Below are positions 38,088-50,195 of a DNA stretch of 51,654 nucleotides, one piece after another. The stretch's first letter is position 1; the number at the start of each line of letters is the position of its first letter. The notes under the pieces are model-generated. The model had not been told where the DNA came from and searched no databases. It worked only from the letters and a program-made list of their open reading frames with translations. The stretch lies in contig DAIDDL010000029.1 of NCBI GenBank assembly GCA_027309085.1, forward strand, positions 1 to 51,654. Reading direction: 5' to 3'. Origin of the DNA: Sulfobacillus sp. (GTDB lineage Bacteria > Bacillota > Sulfobacillia > Sulfobacillales > Sulfobacillaceae). The position numbers were made by a program, and so were the translations under genes.

Positions 38088-38762
38088 ACGGTGGCCTCCC
38101 CCAGCCAATTTCCACACCTTTCAGATGCGGTGCCCCCAGCATAGCAACTTTCTGAGGGAGGATTCCTATCCAAAAGATTGGAAAAACGGGCTAGTCGCCC
38201 TGTGAACTCATGGCAATCCCCCTTTTTCCAACATATGGACAACGGCAGTACACGCGGTTGTCCGGCTTGTATTGCGGGGTCCGTAGATCTGGGTTGTGAA
38301 GGCTCTGGCGGTTGTAGCTTGACCGCCGTCTGCCGGATTTTCACTAGCTGGACCACTGATTGAAGGCAGCATCCATTTCTACTCACCGCTCCGCGCCAGG
38401 CTCTCAGGCCACACATGGTAAGCAGCACCAAATTCAGCCCTGGCCCGTGATATATTCGCATATCACCGCCACGGCAGGGAGATGAAGAATGAGGAATAAG
38501 GCACTAGCCCATCCCCCTGGCAAAGGCCCTTTGCGCCCCAAATGGCAAGGGAGCCCGTCGGGCCACAGTTTTCCCGTATACATCCGCCCCCGATATTGCT
38601 CTCAGTCGGGGTCTCCCACCTTGACCCGCTCTCCCACCTGTCCTCGTGAGTGCCCTAGCTCTGTCGGCATTCCACCCGTTGAATCCGGCACTGTCTGCCG
38701 ATTATTACGCCGTCTCAGCACTCGGAAAGCCGATGCCCGCTTAGCCCCTCTTGGTGATGGCA
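38088..38762. other. intergenic region, no recognised gene
   Basis: A frame at 38084-38461 on the minus strand has no family-like features. The region separates the pilin trio from IS256/ISL3 debris. A larger tad cluster may once have extended here, but nothing of it is recognisable. Confidence 0.35.
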
Positions 38763-39030
38763 GGGCGATAATCTGATCTTCGATCCCCACCATCGCGGTT
38801 TGATGCTTGGGTACCACGATCGGGGTAAACGTGCCCTCGCGGTCCCGGGGAACCGCTAATTCTACGTCCCCGTATTGGGATTTCCGGCTGTGGCCGTTGC
38901 GGCTGTTCGTGGTCTGCTTTTGCTGAATGGCGTACTTGTCGTAGCCCAGATGCGTGTCCAATTCGCTGTCGAGCATGGCCTGCAAGGTGTCGGCCAGGAC
39001 CGCTTTCAGCGCGTCTTGCACATCGTGTAC
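38763..39030 (-). pseudogene. IS256-family transposase, N-terminal fragment
   Basis: The minus frame reads ALKAVLADTLQAMLDSEL, DTHLGYDKYA, NSRNGHSRKSQYG, DVELAVPRDREGTFTP and KHQTAMVGIEDQIIAL. This is the start of the IS256 (mutator-type) transposase. The similarity ends abruptly at about 38763, before any catalytic DDE residue. The fragment cannot be active. Confidence 0.8.
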
Positions 39031-39123
39031 CTTCCACACGATGACCACGCACCCTCCCGGGGGATCGGCGTTATCAGCGTGGCGGCATGCCACGGAGACC
39101 AGCGGCAAGGCAACTGCTCAATT

Positions 39124-39292: not shown

Positions 39293-39593
39293 CAATCCTA
39301 GCCGTAGCCTTCCGGCCTTCCGGGTGGAACGCACTGTCCCATGCGGGCGCCCAAGATGCACAGAGTCAGGGCAAAGAGCGTGATCACCTGGTCCCCAATC
39401 TCTCATCCGACTTACTGCATTTTTGGTGTAAATGCGTCCCATTGTCCGGCGACTGAGAGCCCTGTAGGATAGTCTTGTTACACAATTCCCCGACAGCCAT
39501 GGAGAGTACATTAACCGTAGGCTTGAGGTTGTAGTGTATAATGGTAGTATTGTGACCACCACGACTACCGGTCACTTAAGGAGGTATTTCACT
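39293..39593. other. intergenic region upstream of the LCP gene
   Basis: No gene was recognised. A TATAAT at 39536-39541 lies upstream of the LCP ribosome binding site and may be its -10; the -35 is unclear. Confidence 0.4.
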
Positions 39594-40898
39594 GTGGTTC
39601 ATCGGCGCCGTAGGGACATCCCCCGCCCGAAACACCGTCATCGGTGGCTGTACTGGGCTCTGGGGGGAATCATCATGCTGGGAGCGGCGAGTGTGGGCGC
39701 GTATAGGTATTATGCAAATCCTCAAGATGTGTTGCTCCCCTCGCGTGTGGTCAAGTACAACCAGGCTACGGGCAATCCGGCTTTTGATCACCGCATTACC
39801 TTTCTCTTAATGGGGAGTTCTCTTGCCACGATCAATCACCAGGTGATTACGAACGGCAAGGTGCAAGATCGGGCCGATACCATTATTGTGGTTTCACTCA
39901 ATCCCCAAACCAAAGCGGTGGGGGTCTTGTCGATTCCACGGGATACCCGCGTCACCCTGCCTGGCATCGGCAAGACCAAAATCGCTGAAGCCACCTATTT
40001 TGGCGGCGTCAAAGAAATGGTCCAGGTGGTGCAGACGACGTTTCACGTGCCGATCGATTATTACGCCTATATGAGCATGTTTCAATTTGAAAAAGTTATC
40101 AATGACATGGGCGGACTGACCGTCAATGTTCCGCAAAATGAAGTGTATGAAGCGAAGGGTGACCCCTTGGGCATCAACCTTACCCAAGGGGTCCATCATT
40201 TAAATGGGCAACAAGTATTGGAATTTGCCCGGTTCCGCGCGACGAATTTAGGGGATATCGGACGCATTCAACAGCAGCAGCAACTCCTGCGGGATATGGC
40301 AACACAGTTGCTTAAACCGCAAAACATCACCCGGTGGCCGCAGATTGCCGCCGACGTGATCCACGCATTGAGTTATACCAACCTGGGGCTTAATCAATTA
40401 GTATCTTTAGGCATCTTAGGGCGGCACATTCCGGTTCAAACGTTGCGGTTCGCGACGGTGCCGGGTTACGGGTCCACCCATATGGACCCCTATATGCATC
40501 AAAATCTTAGCTATTGGACTTATGATCCCCATTTGGCCAGTATTTTGGTGGAGGACGTCTTGCTGGCTCACCCGTTGACCGCTGCGCAGAAAAAAAGTCT
40601 GCGCTTTTATATTGCGAGTGGCACCAGCACATTGCTGCCCGCCCAAGCCTTAGCCAAGGAATTAACCGCTCAGGGCTATACGGTTGCTGGTATCGGATGG
40701 GCCAATCACCACAATCATCATCGGACAGTCATTTTGAATACCACGGGGGATCGCTGGCTGGGAGACCGGGTAGCCCAGATTACGGGGCCCGCGGTCAGCA
40801 CCTTTACCGCTTACCATACGACACCCTGGGACATCAAAATTACGGTCGGCAGTGATTATCGCGCGCCTACAACGGCCGCGCGCACATCGCCCTCCTAA
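39594..40898 (+). CDS. LytR-CpsA-Psr (LCP) family cell-wall glycopolymer ligase
   Basis: The 434-residue protein attaches anionic polymers to peptidoglycan. A short basic cytoplasmic start precedes a membrane helix (YWALGGIIMLGAASVGAYRY). The extracellular LCP domain has DRADTIIVVS (residues 91-100), SIPRDTRVTLPG with conserved Arg115 and Arg118, and GGLTVNVP. LEFARFRATNLGDIGRIQQQ is the family's terminal motif. A LytR_C-like domain follows from about residue 330. GTG 39594 is eight bases after AAGGAGGT. It is transcribed alone. The polymer is unknown. Confidence 0.92.
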   Translation: MVHRRRRDIPRPKHRHRWLYWALGGIIMLGAASVGAYRYYANPQDVLLPSRVVKYNQATGNPAFDHRITFLLMGSSLATINHQVITNGKVQDRADTIIVVSLNPQTKAVGVLSIPRDTRVTLPGIGKTKIAEATYFGGVKEMVQVVQTTFHVPIDYYAYMSMFQFEKVINDMGGLTVNVPQNEVYEAKGDPLGINLTQGVHHLNGQQVLEFARFRATNLGDIGRIQQQQQLLRDMATQLLKPQNITRWPQIAADVIHALSYTNLGLNQLVSLGILGRHIPVQTLRFATVPGYGSTHMDPYMHQNLSYWTYDPHLASILVEDVLLAHPLTAAQKKSLRFYIASGTSTLLPAQALAKELTAQGYTVAGIGWANHHNHHRTVILNTTGDRWLGDRVAQITGPAVSTFTAYHTTPWDIKITVGSDYRAPTTAARTSPS

Positions 40899-41281: not shown

Positions 41282-42145
41282 TTATGGCCCAGTCTTGGCG
41301 TGCGCTTTGACAGTAATGGCCTGCTCACCTAATTGCTTCCAAGCGGCGATGAAAGGGGCCTTCGCTACTTTTTCCGCGGCCTGTCCAGTCCATGGATTAT
41401 TGATAAACAAATCCTGGCGGTTGTATCCCACAATGATGACTGCATGTTCCAGGGGCGTGGCCTGCACCGATCCCTCCGGACTATTCCAGGTGATCCAGTC
41501 TGCTGTGGGCTTAAAAGTCAGAGTCGTCCAAACTTCCACTGGCACTCCTTGTGCCACATGGGCGAGAATTCGATTAAAAGACTCGTGGGTGAGATTTTGA
41601 CCTTGGCCGGGCACCACCTGGTTTAACAAGCGCATCATCGGGCCGTTATAGATGCCATAGCCTTCGCCCGCCTTGTAGACGCTACCCACAAATCCCACAT
41701 TAGGATTTCCCCAATAGACCACCTTGTGCACGGCTTGGCCTTGGGCGTCAGTGGTTTCGACCAACTGAACCGGTGTGGGATCTTTGGGCATTTCTTGCGC
41801 CAAGGTCATTTTACTTACCGGGTGTCCTATCGCATCCAAAAGCATAGACAGCGAGGTTACTTCACAACCATTGGGCAATTGTGGAAATTGAGATTGGGCG
41901 GGCACGCGCATTAAGAAGGACGCGGGCATCGCCGGGATAGACCGCGCGGAGCCCGATTTCTTGACAGGCCTTTGGTAACGATTTCCACGCGTTTTGGCCA
42001 CGTCCACTTGATGGTGGGAGGACGGTGCGCCTACCACATAGTGATAGGCCAGGATTCCTCCGGCCACCACCACCGCTAGGCCAAAAAAGAGACGCCGCCA
42101 CTTGACGTGATGCTTTTTCGTTGTCTGTTGGATTGAAGAACGCAT
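41282..42145 (-). CDS. C39-like papain-fold peptidase, membrane anchored
   Basis: The 287-residue protein has a basic N-terminus, one membrane helix (WRRLFFGLAVVVAGGILAYHYV, residues 16-37) and an outside C39_2-type domain. The catalytic Cys94 is in PQLPNGCEVTSLSMLL and His234 in PLEHAVIIVGYN, followed by FINNPWTG. Such domains cleave peptides or are YvpB-like. ATG 42145 follows GTGAGGTG. It lies 41 bases after asnB on the same strand, so they may be co-transcribed. A close relative without the catalytic residues lies at 47473-48375. The substrate is unknown. Confidence 0.85.
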   Translation of the reverse strand: MRSSIQQTTKKHHVKWRRLFFGLAVVVAGGILAYHYVVGAPSSHHQVDVAKTRGNRYQRPVKKSGSARSIPAMPASFLMRVPAQSQFPQLPNGCEVTSLSMLLDAIGHPVSKMTLAQEMPKDPTPVQLVETTDAQGQAVHKVVYWGNPNVGFVGSVYKAGEGYGIYNGPMMRLLNQVVPGQGQNLTHESFNRILAHVAQGVPVEVWTTLTFKPTADWITWNSPEGSVQATPLEHAVIIVGYNRQDLFINNPWTGQAAEKVAKAPFIAAWKQLGEQAITVKAHAKTGP

Positions 42146-42198
42146 AATACACCTCACATTGAGCTTACGGGATTGTCCACATGTAGGATGCCGTTTTG

Positions 42199-44058
42199 CT
42201 AGTCCGCACTCTCAGAAAAAAACGCTCGGTACCATAAAAGGAAAGTCAGCCCAGTCCAAATTTTTCGATCCCGGTTCCAAACATAGGTGCGGGAGTCCAG
42301 CAAGTCTTGGAAATAGTTGGGTTCGACAAAGTCTGGCCTCACACTGGCAAATACATCCCGGATAAAGGGGTTCATGTCATGGGCGATCCAATCCACAATA
42401 GGGATGGGAAACCCGACTTTGGGCCGATTCACAATCATGTCAGGCACAATCCCTTCGGCCGCTTTGCGTAAAGCCACCTTCGTGGTTGCGCGGTTGACAC
42501 GCAACTCGGGAGGCAGTTCGCGTGCTGCCTTTTCAAAGACCTCGACGTCGAGAAACGGCACCCGCAATTCCAAGGAATGGGCCATCGACATTTTATCAGC
42601 CTTCATTAATATGTCCCCGGTCAACCAGGTATGACAATCCACCGTTTGCATCTGAGCGGGTTCATCAAGATGTTGAGTCGCCTCATAATAGGGATCGGTA
42701 ACCGAAAACGACGAGTGGAGATGGGCGAACTGGGAACCTCTTAAAAACTCCTGTTTTTCCTCATCCGAAAACATTTTGGCGTTGCCAATGAAGCGACGGT
42801 TCAAAGCTGTGGTGCCCCGTTCGATGTAGCCTCGGCCCTTCATGCCAGACGGCAAAATCTCCGCCGCCCGCCTGAGTGTGCGCTTTAGGCTCTGAGGCAT
42901 CCGTCTAAAGGGGCTTAGGGCAAGGGGCTCTTGATAGATAGGATAGCCGCCAAAAAGTTCGTCGGCTCCTTCCCCGGACAGGATTACGGTCACATATTTC
43001 CTAGCCTCCTGGGCCAAAAAATAGAGAGCGGGCGCACTGGGATCGGCAATCGGCTCTTCTTGCGCAGCAATGATCTTCGGCAGACTGTCTTCATAGGTTC
43101 GCTGACTGATCTCCACTTCATGATGACGCGTATTGAGCGCCTCGGCCGTCATCCGTGCCACTTGAAGTTCATTGATCTCATGATGCTGACCACTAAAGCC
43201 GATACTAAAGGTATCCACTTCCGCATGTTCGCGCAGTAAGGCCACCACCAGGCTGGAATCGATTCCGCTTGATAAATAAGCGCCCCACTTCACGTCGCTT
43301 TGCATATGCCGGGTAACCGAATCACGCAAGGCGCCCCGGATCCGGGTCGATGCCTCGTCTATGCTTAACTCGGGACTAGGCGCAAATTGCAATTCCCAAT
43401 ACCGAGTGATCGACAACTGCTCGCGGTGGAAGCGGAGGTAATGGCCGGCAGGAAGATGGTAAATCCCCTGAAACATAGTTAGGGGATCCGGCACATACTG
43501 AAAGGTAAAGAAATGCCACAACGCCTGCCAATTAATAGCGGGATAGCGGGATAGTGACGCCAACAAACTGCGTATTTCCGAAGCAAAGCGCAAGGATTGA
43601 CCATCCGAGCTATAGTATAGCGGCTTAATCCCGAAGTGGTCGCGGATTAGATACAAGCTCTCATCGTGCCCATCCCAAATGGCCACTGCGAACATGCCCC
43701 GCAAATCGCGAACCACACGATTAATTCCGCCCTCTTCATATAAATGGGGAATGACTTCGGCATCACTGTGGCTACCAAAGTGGTGGCCTTCGCGTTGCAA
43801 CTGGGCACGCAGGGCCTGGTAGTTGTAAATCTCCCCATTGACCACGGCCACGATGTTGGGATCTTCGCCCGTCATCGGCTGGTGACCACCGGCTAGGTCC
43901 AATATGGAAAGGCGGCGAAATCCAATTCCCACATGCTGTCGACACCACATGCCTTCGTCATCCGGCCCACGGTGGCGCATCAAATTCATCATGGCAGAAA
44001 GAACTCGTGGGTTCACTGCTTGCCCACTTCCGTTAACCACGCCGCAAATTCCACACAT
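42199..44058 (-). CDS. asnB: asparagine synthase, glutamine-hydrolysing
   Basis: The 619-residue enzyme has an N-terminal glutaminase domain with Cys2 nucleophile (MCGICGVVNG) and a synthetase domain with PP-motif YLSSGIDSSLVVALL. GEGADELFGGYP and the C-terminal LELRVPFLDVEV complete it. AAGGACGGTG precedes the ATG. Besides asparagine synthesis, relatives amidate meso-diaminopimelate of peptidoglycan; position beside envelope genes fits that option, but the sequence does not decide. It precedes the C39 peptidase gene. Confidence 0.93.
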   Translation of the reverse strand: MCGICGVVNGSGQAVNPRVLSAMMNLMRHRGPDDEGMWCRQHVGIGFRRLSILDLAGGHQPMTGEDPNIVAVVNGEIYNYQALRAQLQREGHHFGSHSDAEVIPHLYEEGGINRVVRDLRGMFAVAIWDGHDESLYLIRDHFGIKPLYYSSDGQSLRFASEIRSLLASLSRYPAINWQALWHFFTFQYVPDPLTMFQGIYHLPAGHYLRFHREQLSITRYWELQFAPSPELSIDEASTRIRGALRDSVTRHMQSDVKWGAYLSSGIDSSLVVALLREHAEVDTFSIGFSGQHHEINELQVARMTAEALNTRHHEVEISQRTYEDSLPKIIAAQEEPIADPSAPALYFLAQEARKYVTVILSGEGADELFGGYPIYQEPLALSPFRRMPQSLKRTLRRAAEILPSGMKGRGYIERGTTALNRRFIGNAKMFSDEEKQEFLRGSQFAHLHSSFSVTDPYYEATQHLDEPAQMQTVDCHTWLTGDILMKADKMSMAHSLELRVPFLDVEVFEKAARELPPELRVNRATTKVALRKAAEGIVPDMIVNRPKVGFPIPIVDWIAHDMNPFIRDVFASVRPDFVEPNYFQDLLDSRTYVWNRDRKIWTGLTFLLWYRAFFSESAD

Positions 44059-44502: not shown

Positions 44503-46011
44503 TTAATGCTGGTAAATCTGGTGACGCTGACCAAGCCATGCGTTTAGGTATTGACGATTTTTCAGTAAAACGATCTTAATTTCTTGCGTAACTTTGTTCC
44601 ATGCACTCCAATCCGTTCGGCGATAGGCGGTGCCGCTCCATTTTCCTCGTCGTTGCATCCATTCACGCAAGGGTTTTGGCACATTCTCCCGCCAAACCTT
44701 CAGCCCTCCGCGCCGTCCAATCACCAAAGCGGCGGCGTGATGGACGCTGATCCCATACTGCGGTTGATACTTCAATCGTCCAATAATGGACGTGTAAGCG
44801 GGCTTCGCCTTACGCACTTCGACTCCCTCACGGGCGGCTTGGCGTTTTAACGCCGTCAAGAACGCCCGGTAGGTAAACTGGTGGGTCACCCGATTGAACT
44901 TGGCGCTCACATCTTTGTCGTGAATGAAATCTAAGTTTTCCACCACGAGACCCGCTCCGCGTTCTTTGGCCCACTGCACGGCTTGATGGGTCACCGCACC
45001 GATGATGGCATCCCGTTGAGTGGCCCGCGCATCGTACAGGCGGCTATCGCCGAAGGTGGCAAAACCTTGCGGATTGCCATCGGGGCGGACATGGCAGAGA
45101 GCTAAAAAGGTGACATTGGTGTCCACGCCGACCCACCCGTTAACCGGATAGGTTTGCAGTGCAGCAGGTTCTTCCTCCACAGTGATCCGCACCTGATAGC
45201 GTCCGTGCCGCCGGAGAATTTCGACTTGGTACGGATCACCAGACGCCAGTACTCGACGCAGTAACCCTTCATAATCCCGTCCGTTGATCTTCCCAGTTTT
45301 ACTATGCACCTTGCGAGCAACATAGAGAGGCAGAGACAGCCGACGGTAGCGGATGCCCTTTTTCTCTGTATCCCGTTCATCCAAAGACATTTCTAACAGC
45401 CAATGGTCCGGTCCTTCGTGAAGGCGCAGGAGCGGATTGCCCGTTTTTGTCCGATCACCCCGAGCAGACAGGCGCCCGTTGCGCCCTTCGTCCCATTGTT
45501 CTTTCCAGACTTTTTGCCGTTGAAACTCGGCTAACGGGTCTGCCAGTGTATGAAAGCGTTCCAAGAACAGCTGGCGCGTGCCGAAAACGACGGGAGGAAA
45601 GGTCTTCTCTGTGACATGCTTCTGATACATGGCGACATGTTTTTGTTGCCGCAGGAGTTTACGCTCCAAGCCCGGGATCCGTCGGGAGTCGGGATGATCT
45701 TTTTTCAGCACCGCGAGGCGTGTCGCGGTTTTTTTGGCGCGGCGTTGCCAGAGGGTTAGCGCGTCTTGCATGGCTTGACGACGGCTTGTGATCAGCTCTT
45801 GCGCGTCATGAACCGCATCTTTGGCATAGCGTAAAGGCAATCCCATTTCACTCGCACAATGCCGTTCAATGGCTCCGACTTTAATCATGCCTTCGCTGAG
45901 CCGCTTGAAGGCAAATCGCATCATAAACCCATACTCGCGCATGAGGCGACGGAGTGCCGTGTCCTGGTCTTCATTCACATCGAGGAGCACACCAAAAATG
46001 GTCGTTTTCAT
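44503..46011 (-). CDS. tnpB: TnpB-family RNA-guided nuclease of an IS607 element
   Basis: The 502-residue protein has a long helical N-terminal half and a RuvC-like C-terminal half. The first RuvC Asp is Asp297 in GWVGVDTNV, and Glu358 lies in GLVVENLDF. KPAYTSIIGRLKY corresponds to the usual NPAxTS motif. The C4 zinc finger (CxxC...CxxC) is absent, and where a third acidic residue is expected I see VHHAAALVIGRR (residues 423-434), without an Asp or Glu. The alignment is by eye. It begins four bases inside the end of the recombinase gene. Confidence 0.82.
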   Translation of the reverse strand: MKTTIFGVLLDVNEDQDTALRRLMREYGFMMRFAFKRLSEGMIKVGAIERHCASEMGLPLRYAKDAVHDAQELITSRRQAMQDALTLWQRRAKKTATRLAVLKKDHPDSRRIPGLERKLLRQQKHVAMYQKHVTEKTFPPVVFGTRQLFLERFHTLADPLAEFQRQKVWKEQWDEGRNGRLSARGDRTKTGNPLLRLHEGPDHWLLEMSLDERDTEKKGIRYRRLSLPLYVARKVHSKTGKINGRDYEGLLRRVLASGDPYQVEILRRHGRYQVRITVEEEPAALQTYPVNGWVGVDTNVTFLALCHVRPDGNPQGFATFGDSRLYDARATQRDAIIGAVTHQAVQWAKERGAGLVVENLDFIHDKDVSAKFNRVTHQFTYRAFLTALKRQAAREGVEVRKAKPAYTSIIGRLKYQPQYGISVHHAAALVIGRRGGLKVWRENVPKPLREWMQRRGKWSGTAYRRTDWSAWNKVTQEIKIVLLKNRQYLNAWLGQRHQIYQH

Positions 46012-46655
46012 ACGGAGTCTCCTTCCTCGGCTAATGTGGCCATCGCTTGACGCACGGTCGTGGCCACCTTTTTGCCCCCACGCTTGCCGTAGATGCGGGC
46101 CGAGAACGATGTCGTGATGGCAATCAAATCGTCGACGAGTTCCTGCTGGTCATCCTTCGCCGTATGCTCCATGATGACCACACGCACGCCGAAGGCATGC
46201 AAAAAGGTTTCTAAGTAGGCGAATCCAAAGCGGGCTAGACGATCCTTATACTCCACCGCCACGATGCCCGCCTGGTGCTGCTGAGCGAGTTCCAACAGTT
46301 GATGCAGCCCCCGCCGCTTTTCATTTAAGCCACTGGCGACATCGGTTAAAGCCGTGACCACCTGCCATTGTTGCTCCGCCGCGAAGGCGGTGAGTCGTCC
46401 CAGTTGTCGATCCAAATTCCCGGCCTCTTGTTGTTTTTTGGTGGGGACGCGAGCATACAGGATACAGCGCGAAGCCTGACCAACCTGGAGGTTCTCTGAT
46501 AACAAAGCCTGTAAGTCCGCCACACGATAACGCCGCTGATTCGTCAAGGTCCGCATCGGCACGAGAACCCCCGTCGCTTCCCAATGGCGCAAGCCTTCAA
46601 TGCTCATGCCAATCATCTTGGCCGCCTTGCCGATACTTACGAATTGTTCTTCCAT
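46008..46655 (-). CDS. IS607-type serine recombinase with altered catalytic site
   Basis: The 215-residue protein has a MerR-like HTH (SIGKAAKMIGMSIEGLRHWE) then a serine-recombinase domain: CILYARVPTKKQ, GNLDRQLGRL, DVASGLNEKRRGL and EYKDRLARFGFAYLE. The usual motif is YARVST, where the Ser is the nucleophile. Here codon CCC (46443-46445) gives Pro71, one transition from TCC. The protein is otherwise complete. ATG 46655 follows AGGTGATC; a TATAAT at 46675-46680 lies just upstream and argues against the ATG at 46688. Confidence 0.85.
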   Translation of the reverse strand: MEEQFVSIGKAAKMIGMSIEGLRHWEATGVLVPMRTLTNQRRYRVADLQALLSENLQVGQASRCILYARVPTKKQQEAGNLDRQLGRLTAFAAEQQWQVVTALTDVASGLNEKRRGLHQLLELAQQHQAGIVAVEYKDRLARFGFAYLETFLHAFGVRVVIMEHTAKDDQQELVDDLIAITTSFSARIYGKRGGKKVATTVRQAMATLAEEGDSV

Positions 46656-46719
46656 ATGCTGATCACCTAGGAATATTATACCATCCATTGTAATTCTTTA
46701 CGAGCAAATTATAAAGCAG

Positions 46720-47472: not shown

Positions 47473-48375
47473 CTAACCCTTTTTCGTGCCAGAGTGTTTC
47501 TTGGGGCCACTCGTCTTCGCGTTGATTGCCCTCTTCTTTGGCAACGGCACCGGGACAGTCACTGTCACTGCTTGGCTACCCAGTTGTTTCCAAGCCTCTT
47601 CGAACGGTTTCATAGGTACCTTTTGGAGCGTTCCGGATCCCGGATTGTCCACATAGACATAGCCGGCGACCTTGTTGTACCCAACGATGAGCCCCGTGTT
47701 TTCGTCAGGTGTAGCTTTGATTAACCCTTCTGGACTTTGCCACGAAATCCAGGACGTGGTTGGCTGGAAGTTGAGGGTAGACCAAATTTCCACCGGCCTC
47801 CGGTGTCCGACAGCCGTCAATATAGTAGAAAAAGGCTTGCCGGTGAGATTGACGCCATGCCTGGGCCAGACTTTGTTGATGAGAGTTAAAATGGGAGCGT
47901 GATAGACCCCGTAGCCCTTGCCAGACTGATACATATTGCCCACATACCCCACACTGGGATCGCCCCACTTGAGAATCTGCCATACCGTTTGGCCCGCCTG
48001 ATCCTTATAACTTTTGATGACTTCCCGCATCGGGTCGACATGAATCTTCTGGGCCAATACCACCTTGCTCACCGGGTGGTCAACGGCGGAGAACAACATG
48101 GACAAGGTCGTCACCTCGGCCCCATTCGGCAATTGCGGCAATTGGGACTGGGGGGTAACTTGCAACAAAATTTGTTGCGGCAAGGGCTTTGGCTTGGCTA
48201 CTACCTTCTTTGGGACAGAGGTCTTGGAAGATTTAGTAGAAGCCAGAAGTCCATAAAAATGGTTGGAAAAGCCCACGGCCACCATCCCAATGACAATAAT
48301 GCCCGCAATCACATTAAAAATCGTATCAGAAGATCGTTTCTTTTCGCGGGAATGAGATTTGAATAAATCCTTCAC
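47473..48375 (-). CDS. C39-like protein lacking the catalytic residues
   Basis: The 300-residue protein has a membrane helix (VIAGIIVIGMVAVGF), a basic Lys/Pro linker and a C39_2-type domain clearly paralogous to the one at 41282-42145. PQLPNGAEVTTLSML replaces PQLPNGCEVTSLSML, and ATPDENTGLIVGYN replaces ATPLEHAVIIVGYN. Catalytic Cys is therefore Ala86 and His is Asn226. The Ala codon GCC is two changes from Cys. The rest of the fold is conserved (GYGVYHAPILTLINKV, SWISWQSPEG). It starts at GTG 48375 after GTAGGAG, and ends in a Lys-rich tail. It is likely a binding or regulatory pseudoenzyme. The reading frame is intact. Confidence 0.85.
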   Translation of the reverse strand: MKDLFKSHSREKKRSSDTIFNVIAGIIVIGMVAVGFSNHFYGLLASTKSSKTSVPKKVVAKPKPLPQQILLQVTPQSQLPQLPNGAEVTTLSMLFSAVDHPVSKVVLAQKIHVDPMREVIKSYKDQAGQTVWQILKWGDPSVGYVGNMYQSGKGYGVYHAPILTLINKVWPRHGVNLTGKPFSTILTAVGHRRPVEIWSTLNFQPTTSWISWQSPEGLIKATPDENTGLIVGYNKVAGYVYVDNPGSGTLQKVPMKPFEEAWKQLGSQAVTVTVPVPLPKKRAINAKTSGPKKHSGTKKG

Positions 48376-49451: not shown

Positions 49452-50195
49452 GTGCGCGTCCGTGAGGACGGGTGCTAAGCGTAAACAGCGAAATGGGCCA
49501 GAACTTGGGAGAGCTCTGGCGGTCACGCGACGCGCGTACCCGCTTCCCGATAGGTGAGAGCCGAAGGGCCGGGAATGCCACCGGAGCAGTCGGACGACAT
49601 CATAGTACTCCGCGCACGGGAAAGCCGTGTACATCGGGAAGGGTGTCGCGATTATCGGTCGTCTAACGGACCCATGGTCCGACCACAGAGAGGAGTAACC
49701 CATGTCCACCCACCTAGACGACATTGCCTATCGAGCACAGCAGCAGCCTGCCGCGCGGTTTACCGCGCTGGCGCACCATTTGACGGAAGACTTTCTGGAA
49801 GAAACGTGGCAAGCGCTCAATGCGCACGGCGCCCCGGGTCTGTTGGGGAAACCATGGCAGCCTATGCGCGCGTGCGGCGATTTCGCATCGCCAAACTGGT
49901 CGAGCGGCTAAAGGCGCACGCGTACCGCGTGCCGCCCATCCGTCGGGTGTATATCCCGAAACCGGGACAACCGCAGAAGCAGCGGCCCCTCGGCATCCCG
50001 GAAGTGGAGGACCGCCTCTTGCAGGCGGCCGTCAGTCGGTTGCTGACCCCGATATATGAAGCGGATTTCCGGGACAGCTCCTATGGGTTCCGTCCGGGCC
50101 GCAGTCCCACGATGCCCTCCGGGCCGTGGAGCAGACGGTCATGCGGCATCCCATCCGGGAGATCCATCCCACCCTCCATAGAAGTTCCGTGACAC
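49452..50195 (+). mobile_element. truncated group II intron with reverse transcriptase remnant
   Basis: The 5' end GTGCG at 49452-49456 is followed by intron RNA sequence. GGAGCAGTCGGACGACATCA near 49579 matches the conserved segment before the intron-encoded protein. The protein starts at 49702 ([20 protein letters not shown]), changes frame near 49845 and continues [34 protein letters not shown] and YGFRPGRSP. It changes frame again near 50107 ([11 protein letters not shown]) and is lost by about 50170. The catalytic YADD region and domain V are absent, so it is not mobile. Confidence 0.82.

Follow-up and report, generated by a model that had tools for sequence, protein, structure and literature searches.

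Two C39_2 genes in the window

The window, i.e. the whole stretch of 51,654 nucleotides of Sulfobacillus DNA that was analysed, carries two genes of the family Peptidase_C39_2 (PF13529), and no other PF13529 protein was found in the genome. Gene A (47473..48375, minus strand) encodes a putative C39_2 pseudopeptidase of 300 aa, while gene B (41282..42145, minus strand) encodes its active paralogue, a C39_2 peptidase with intact Cys94, His234 and Asn250. The plus strand contains stops at the coordinates of both genes. The frame of A is complete from GTG 48375 to the stop codon at 47473-47475, with a Shine-Dalgarno-like AGGAG just before the GTG. A start at the in-frame TTG 48393 would yield 306 aa; the orthologues of A share a start at the same GTG-Lys-Asp, which favours GTG 48375 over this alternative. 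With a curated cut-off of 24 bits for PF13529, A scores 63.8 bits and B 108.4 bits. A is a single-domain protein, for PF13529 is the sole Pfam domain found and there is no fusion to an ABC transporter.

What are the parts of the protein A? All coordinates in this paragraph and the next are on the minus strand. A hydrophobic segment near the N-terminus (residues 18-36, 48268..48324; Kyte-Doolittle mean 2.37 over 19 residues) is predicted to be a membrane anchor. A and B both have a basic N-terminus followed by such a hydrophobic stretch, and from this pattern the domain of each should be extracellular and anchored in the membrane. The papain-like C39_2 domain of A was placed at residues 66-272 (47560..48180) with an AlphaFold2 model. 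It is followed by a Lys/Pro-rich basic tail (residues 273-300, 47476..47559) with a net charge of about +8, which has no counterpart in B.

The two proteins share 42% identity over 279 aa (E = 5e-74), a relationship that, as judged by alignment, is far beyond chance. In the alignment Cys94 of B meets Ala86 of A (48118..48120, codon GCC), and His234 of B meets Asn226 of A (47698..47700). Asn250 of B corresponds to Asn244 in the pair Asp243-Asn244 of A (47644..47649), so the third triad position is kept. The Gln eight residues ahead of the nucleophile position is also kept in A; this residue, Gln78 (48142..48144), is retained in all A proteins covering the site, and from the alignment to the structure 3ERV and knowledge of the family we take it to be the oxyanion-hole Gln. 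From B to A, the motif around the Cys changes from PNGCEVTSLSML to PNGAEVTTLSML, and that around the His from PLEHAVIIVGY to PDENTGLIVGY. The original prediction had claimed that A lost both catalytic residues through these very changes, and the alignment bears it out.

It had also claimed that A kept its fold and frame. The AlphaFold2 model of A has a mean pLDDT of 71.6, with values above 80 for most of the core of the domain and a poor region at residues 143-156. Among solved C39_2 structures the nearest is 3ERV, a putative C39-like peptidase of Bacillus anthracis; the model of A aligns to it over 192 residues with an rmsd of 2.4, Z 24.3 and 32% identity, and the model of B matches it with Z 28.3. 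The model of A also resembles C39 domains, e.g. 6MPZ (Z 15.4) and 3K8U (Z 14.7). Thus the fold is predicted to be retained, and the complete frame and the PF13529 score agree with the claim. Compared with 3ERV, A shares the family, the fold, the Gln and the third triad residue, but has Ala and Asn for Cys and His, a basic tail, and a fixed Asp before the triad Asn. Compared with B, it shares the fold and the predicted anchor and topology, while B has the intact triad and a C-terminus that is shorter and less basic. The model of B also resembles the pseudomurein endoisopeptidase PeiR (Z about 16).

Directly upstream of B lies a gene resembling asnB, a glutamine-dependent asparagine synthetase/amidotransferase (42199..44058, minus strand), which forms with B a conserved asnB-C39_2 pair. 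In the window A and asnB share a strand, A being the upstream gene, and an IS607-type element (44503..46688, minus strand) sits between them, comprising a TnpA assigned by its MerR and resolvase domains and an ORF that is TnpB-like by resemblance only. The element is outside the system and marks rearrangement. Its TnpB-like ORF of 502 aa had no Pfam match at E 0.001, and on visual inspection its RuvC-like motifs seem atypical. The region is further flanked by a Mutator-family transposase fragment (38602-39108, minus strand) and a fragment of a group II intron type reverse transcriptase (49554-50192, plus strand), which is a sign of repeated rearrangement around the two genes.

Orthologues of A and the age of the loss

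Is the altered active site a peculiarity of one genome? Orthologues were searched in 61 related genomes, and then in 42 genomes of the order and 154 of the class. An orthologue of A is present in six separately assembled genomes of related acid-mine bacteria of the Sulfobacillus group, four in the genus of the window (G000, G001, G005, G006) and two in another genus of the same family (G009, G018). Public records for five of these carriers, all metagenome-assembled, name Sulfobacillus benefaciens AMDSBA1, a Sulfobacillus sp. and three unclassified Bacillota. In G009 the gene is split across two contig ends with an identical overlap of 41 residues, and the other five frames are intact. Ala and Asn occupy the catalytic Cys and His positions in all six orthologues, which answers the proposed check for conservation of the pair across species, while the other 23 proteins in the alignment of order and class all have Cys and His. 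Among B homologues in 398 genomes across the phylum, Cys is found in 22 of the 22 covering its site and His in 24 of 24. The catalytic residues that are missing in A thus stay missing across six genomes.

In a class-wide profile search the A group scores at least 371 bits (G009 counted by its longer half) and the best other match 297 bits; by this sharp drop the orthologue group is closed. Of the 154 class genomes 24 have a match and six of the 24 have A, so most genomes with B lack A. An alignment-based scan of contigs recovered five A-clade genomes and a Paenibacillus homologue with intact Cys and His, and a contig scan with a single A protein as query gave no match. A viral or mobile origin of A was considered and rejected, as no relative was found in viral contigs.

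Independent losses of the same kind were sought in the 398 phylum genomes, a sample containing two of the six A carriers, by an exact scan for the Ala-version motif G-A-E-V/A-T, which misses other kinds of loss. Eight sites were found. Two belong to the A clade, four lie in proteins that by inspection only resemble electron-transfer flavoproteins, and one is in a short spurious frame. The remaining site (L113 in genome G221) has Phe where the motif has Leu.

In the maximum-likelihood tree the six A proteins form one clade with support of 100/99, which becomes 100/100 once the two trait columns are removed. A recent duplication of B within the genus was rejected: forcing A and B of the window's genus together gave an AU p of 0.0001. 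The single clade and this rejection indicate that the loss is old and single in this sample. Barring a transfer of the gene between the two genera, the catalytic loss would then be older than their split.

Gene order differs among the carriers. A and B are convergent neighbours in G001, G005 and G006, an arrangement other than that in the window, and A is still linked to asnB and B in 4 of the 4 carriers of the genus. The linkage thus survives changes of gene order within the genus. It is not universal, since in the second genus (g3; G009 and G018) A is unlinked to asnB and B. There its neighbours are a cytochrome oxidase operon on one side and, on the other, an MFS transporter with a two-component system (L067, L069, L070), a setting conserved between the two genomes. 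Within the window's genus, four of eight genomes have the cognate asnB (about 70% identity) together with B and A; the other four, three of them nearly complete, lack all three genes. One or two events could underlie this pattern and the six orthologues have one origin, so the co-occurrence is suggestive and not proof.

Selection on A and B

With IQ-TREE codon models the dN/dS of A in four species was estimated as 0.045, and for the same species the values are 0.034 for B and 0.074 for asnB. Fixing omega of A at 1 costs 258 log-likelihood units. Among three close species the pairwise omega is about 0.07 or less, with dS about 1 by YN00 and about 2 by NG86. As dS is near or beyond saturation in pairs with the window's genome, the exact omega of A is soft, while a value near 1 is excluded. 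The comparison of the two paralogues had been part of the original prediction, according to which orthologues with Cys and His, or a dN/dS near 1, would mark A as a decaying copy. Neither was found, and the reading of A as a selected pseudoenzyme is supported. We consider it very probable that A is a selectively maintained pseudoenzyme, its lack of activity being judged from the sequence.

Which parts of A are conserved? The active group has 82 invariant positions, 54 of which every A protein retains; in 11 columns A is fixed for a different state, including Asp243, where the active group carries Asn. Conserved positions are concentrated in the segments around the former active site (28/40 vs 66/167 in the rest of the A domain, p = 0.0007). 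These segments are well conserved in B too, so this conservation shows that the cleft is retained and not that it is under a new pressure.

A real decaying copy is available for contrast with A. S. benefaciens AMDSBA1 (G005) has a third C39_2 copy of B type (L030, G005:C130:13247-13621) which is truncated and has scrambled ends.

Possible roles of the pseudopeptidase

Why would a peptidase without its catalytic residues be kept? An altered form that is maintained in six genomes under strong selection, beside a working enzyme, argues for a partner or binder that does not cut and against a decaying copy. The best explanation overall, in our view a probable one whose mechanism we infer, is that A is a surface-anchored, non-cleaving C39_2 protein that serves the asnB-B pair as a binding or regulatory partner. 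Its history would begin with one ancient duplication, after which A lost both its nucleophile, Cys becoming Ala, and its general base, His becoming Asn, while the oxyanion Gln, the triad Asn, the cleft walls and the fold were retained. With an N-terminal anchor that would keep it on the outside of the membrane and with a basic Lys/Pro tail, A may bind a peptide or cell-envelope ligand of the kind bound by B, but without cutting it. As a partner of B it might present, shield or tether the substrate, or regulate B by pairing with it. The shared presence of A with B and their linkage favour a functional tie, to which we give slightly better than an even chance; the roles of inhibitor, substrate-binder and partner are indistinguishable on these data. 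That A works through ligand binding in the cleft is plausible at somewhat less than even chance; the conservation of the cleft, which is seen in B too, could be structural.

The rival readings differ in how much of the evidence they take up. If A were a recent duplicate of B that has lost its active site and is becoming a pseudogene, the two missing catalytic residues would be expected, and A is indeed somewhat more divergent than B (57% vs 68% identity between G000 and G018). However, five frames are intact and the sixth is split only by a contig end, the Ala/Asn pair is identical in six genomes, the origin is ancient, omega is 0.045, and actual decay looks as it does in L030. Decay is refuted by the omega and orthologue data, and we regard it as extremely improbable. 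A could also be an enzyme with a new function, using a relocated or different catalytic residue such as Asp243, Asn226 or a fixed Lys. Asp243 and Lys235 are fixed in A and not in B and are close to the old active site in sequence, and some pseudoenzymes are known to have relocated catalytic residues (PMC10211241). But the A alignment shows no alternative nucleophile, there being no fixed Cys, and amide hydrolysis is not easily explained with Asn at the general-base position, which makes this reading quite improbable.

Two further readings keep A inactive. One, which falls under the partner reading as a sub-case, makes A a dedicated inhibitor or decoy that would bind B or its substrate and lower proteolysis. 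A is a paralogue of B with the same predicted topology and is present together with it in the genus; yet most genomes with B lack A, so B has no general need of such control, and inhibition is indistinguishable from activation on present evidence. We think this sub-case unlikely. Somewhat less unlikely is that A binds the cell wall or an anionic polymer with no tie to B, its fold being only a scaffold and its basic tail and surface contacting teichoic acid, peptidoglycan or lipid head groups. Past the anchor A has a net charge of +18 to +20 and B one of +5 to +10, and both the basic tail and the absence of linkage to asnB-B in the second genus are compatible with this. Against it, the cleft motifs are kept and not the surface alone, and in the window's genus A is found only with asnB and B. 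The basic tail nevertheless makes a simpler role, binding to the envelope, conceivable.

Inactive C39 domains are known in other settings. The C39-like domain (CLD) of ABC transporters of type 1 secretion systems, e.g. HlyB, has a C39-type fold and has lost the catalytic Cys (PMC8277102, PMC6363468), and the CLD of HlyB recruits cargo without cleavage (PMC8277102). It resembles A in its C39-type fold without the catalytic Cys, but it sits at the N-terminus of an ABC transporter, facing the cytosol, and in HlyB keeps His83, while A is free-standing, membrane-anchored, predicted to be extracellular and has lost both residues. MamO of magnetotactic bacteria is a pseudoprotease that activates its live paralogue MamE (PMC4794232). 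Like A it is an inactive bacterial paralogue beside an active protease, and its roles are non-catalytic, with activation of MamE being one of them; unlike A it belongs to the trypsin-like (HtrA) family and binds metal, and there is no sequence relation between the two. A literature search among open-licence PMC papers, hence a weak negative, gave no report of a free-standing inactive C39_2 protein and nothing linking Sulfobacillus to peptidase C39; a search for Sulfobacillus and asparagine synthetase returned unrelated papers only. We likewise know of no free-standing degenerate C39_2 example. Degenerate C39 domains are thus already known, but within ABC transporters, and the free-standing C39_2 pseudopeptidase appears to be the new part.

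Bacterial pseudoproteases are seldom documented as clean orthologue groups. In A there is a single loss event common to two genera, with an active paralogue that serves as a control within the genome and with similar selection on both, so the role of the dead peptidase is directly testable by comparing two anchored ectodomains. More tentatively, and short of an even chance, the Sulfobacillus group may have an as yet undescribed cell-surface system made of an asnB-type amidotransferase, an active C39_2 peptidase and a dedicated free-standing pseudopeptidase that regulates the enzyme or presents its substrate, which would be the first such pair in the family.

The finding also points to a conserved gene pair worth separate study. 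The asnB-like gene is directly upstream of a B-type C39_2 gene in most genomes having it, in several families of the class (41282-44058 of the window, minus strand; L002, L007-L019, L024, L027-L029, L095), and we know of no explanation for this pair. Both the asnB product and the active C39_2 peptidase could act on the cell wall. A gene of the LytR-CpsA-Psr family, a family of cell-wall polymer ligases, adjoins B in the window (39534-40898, plus strand).
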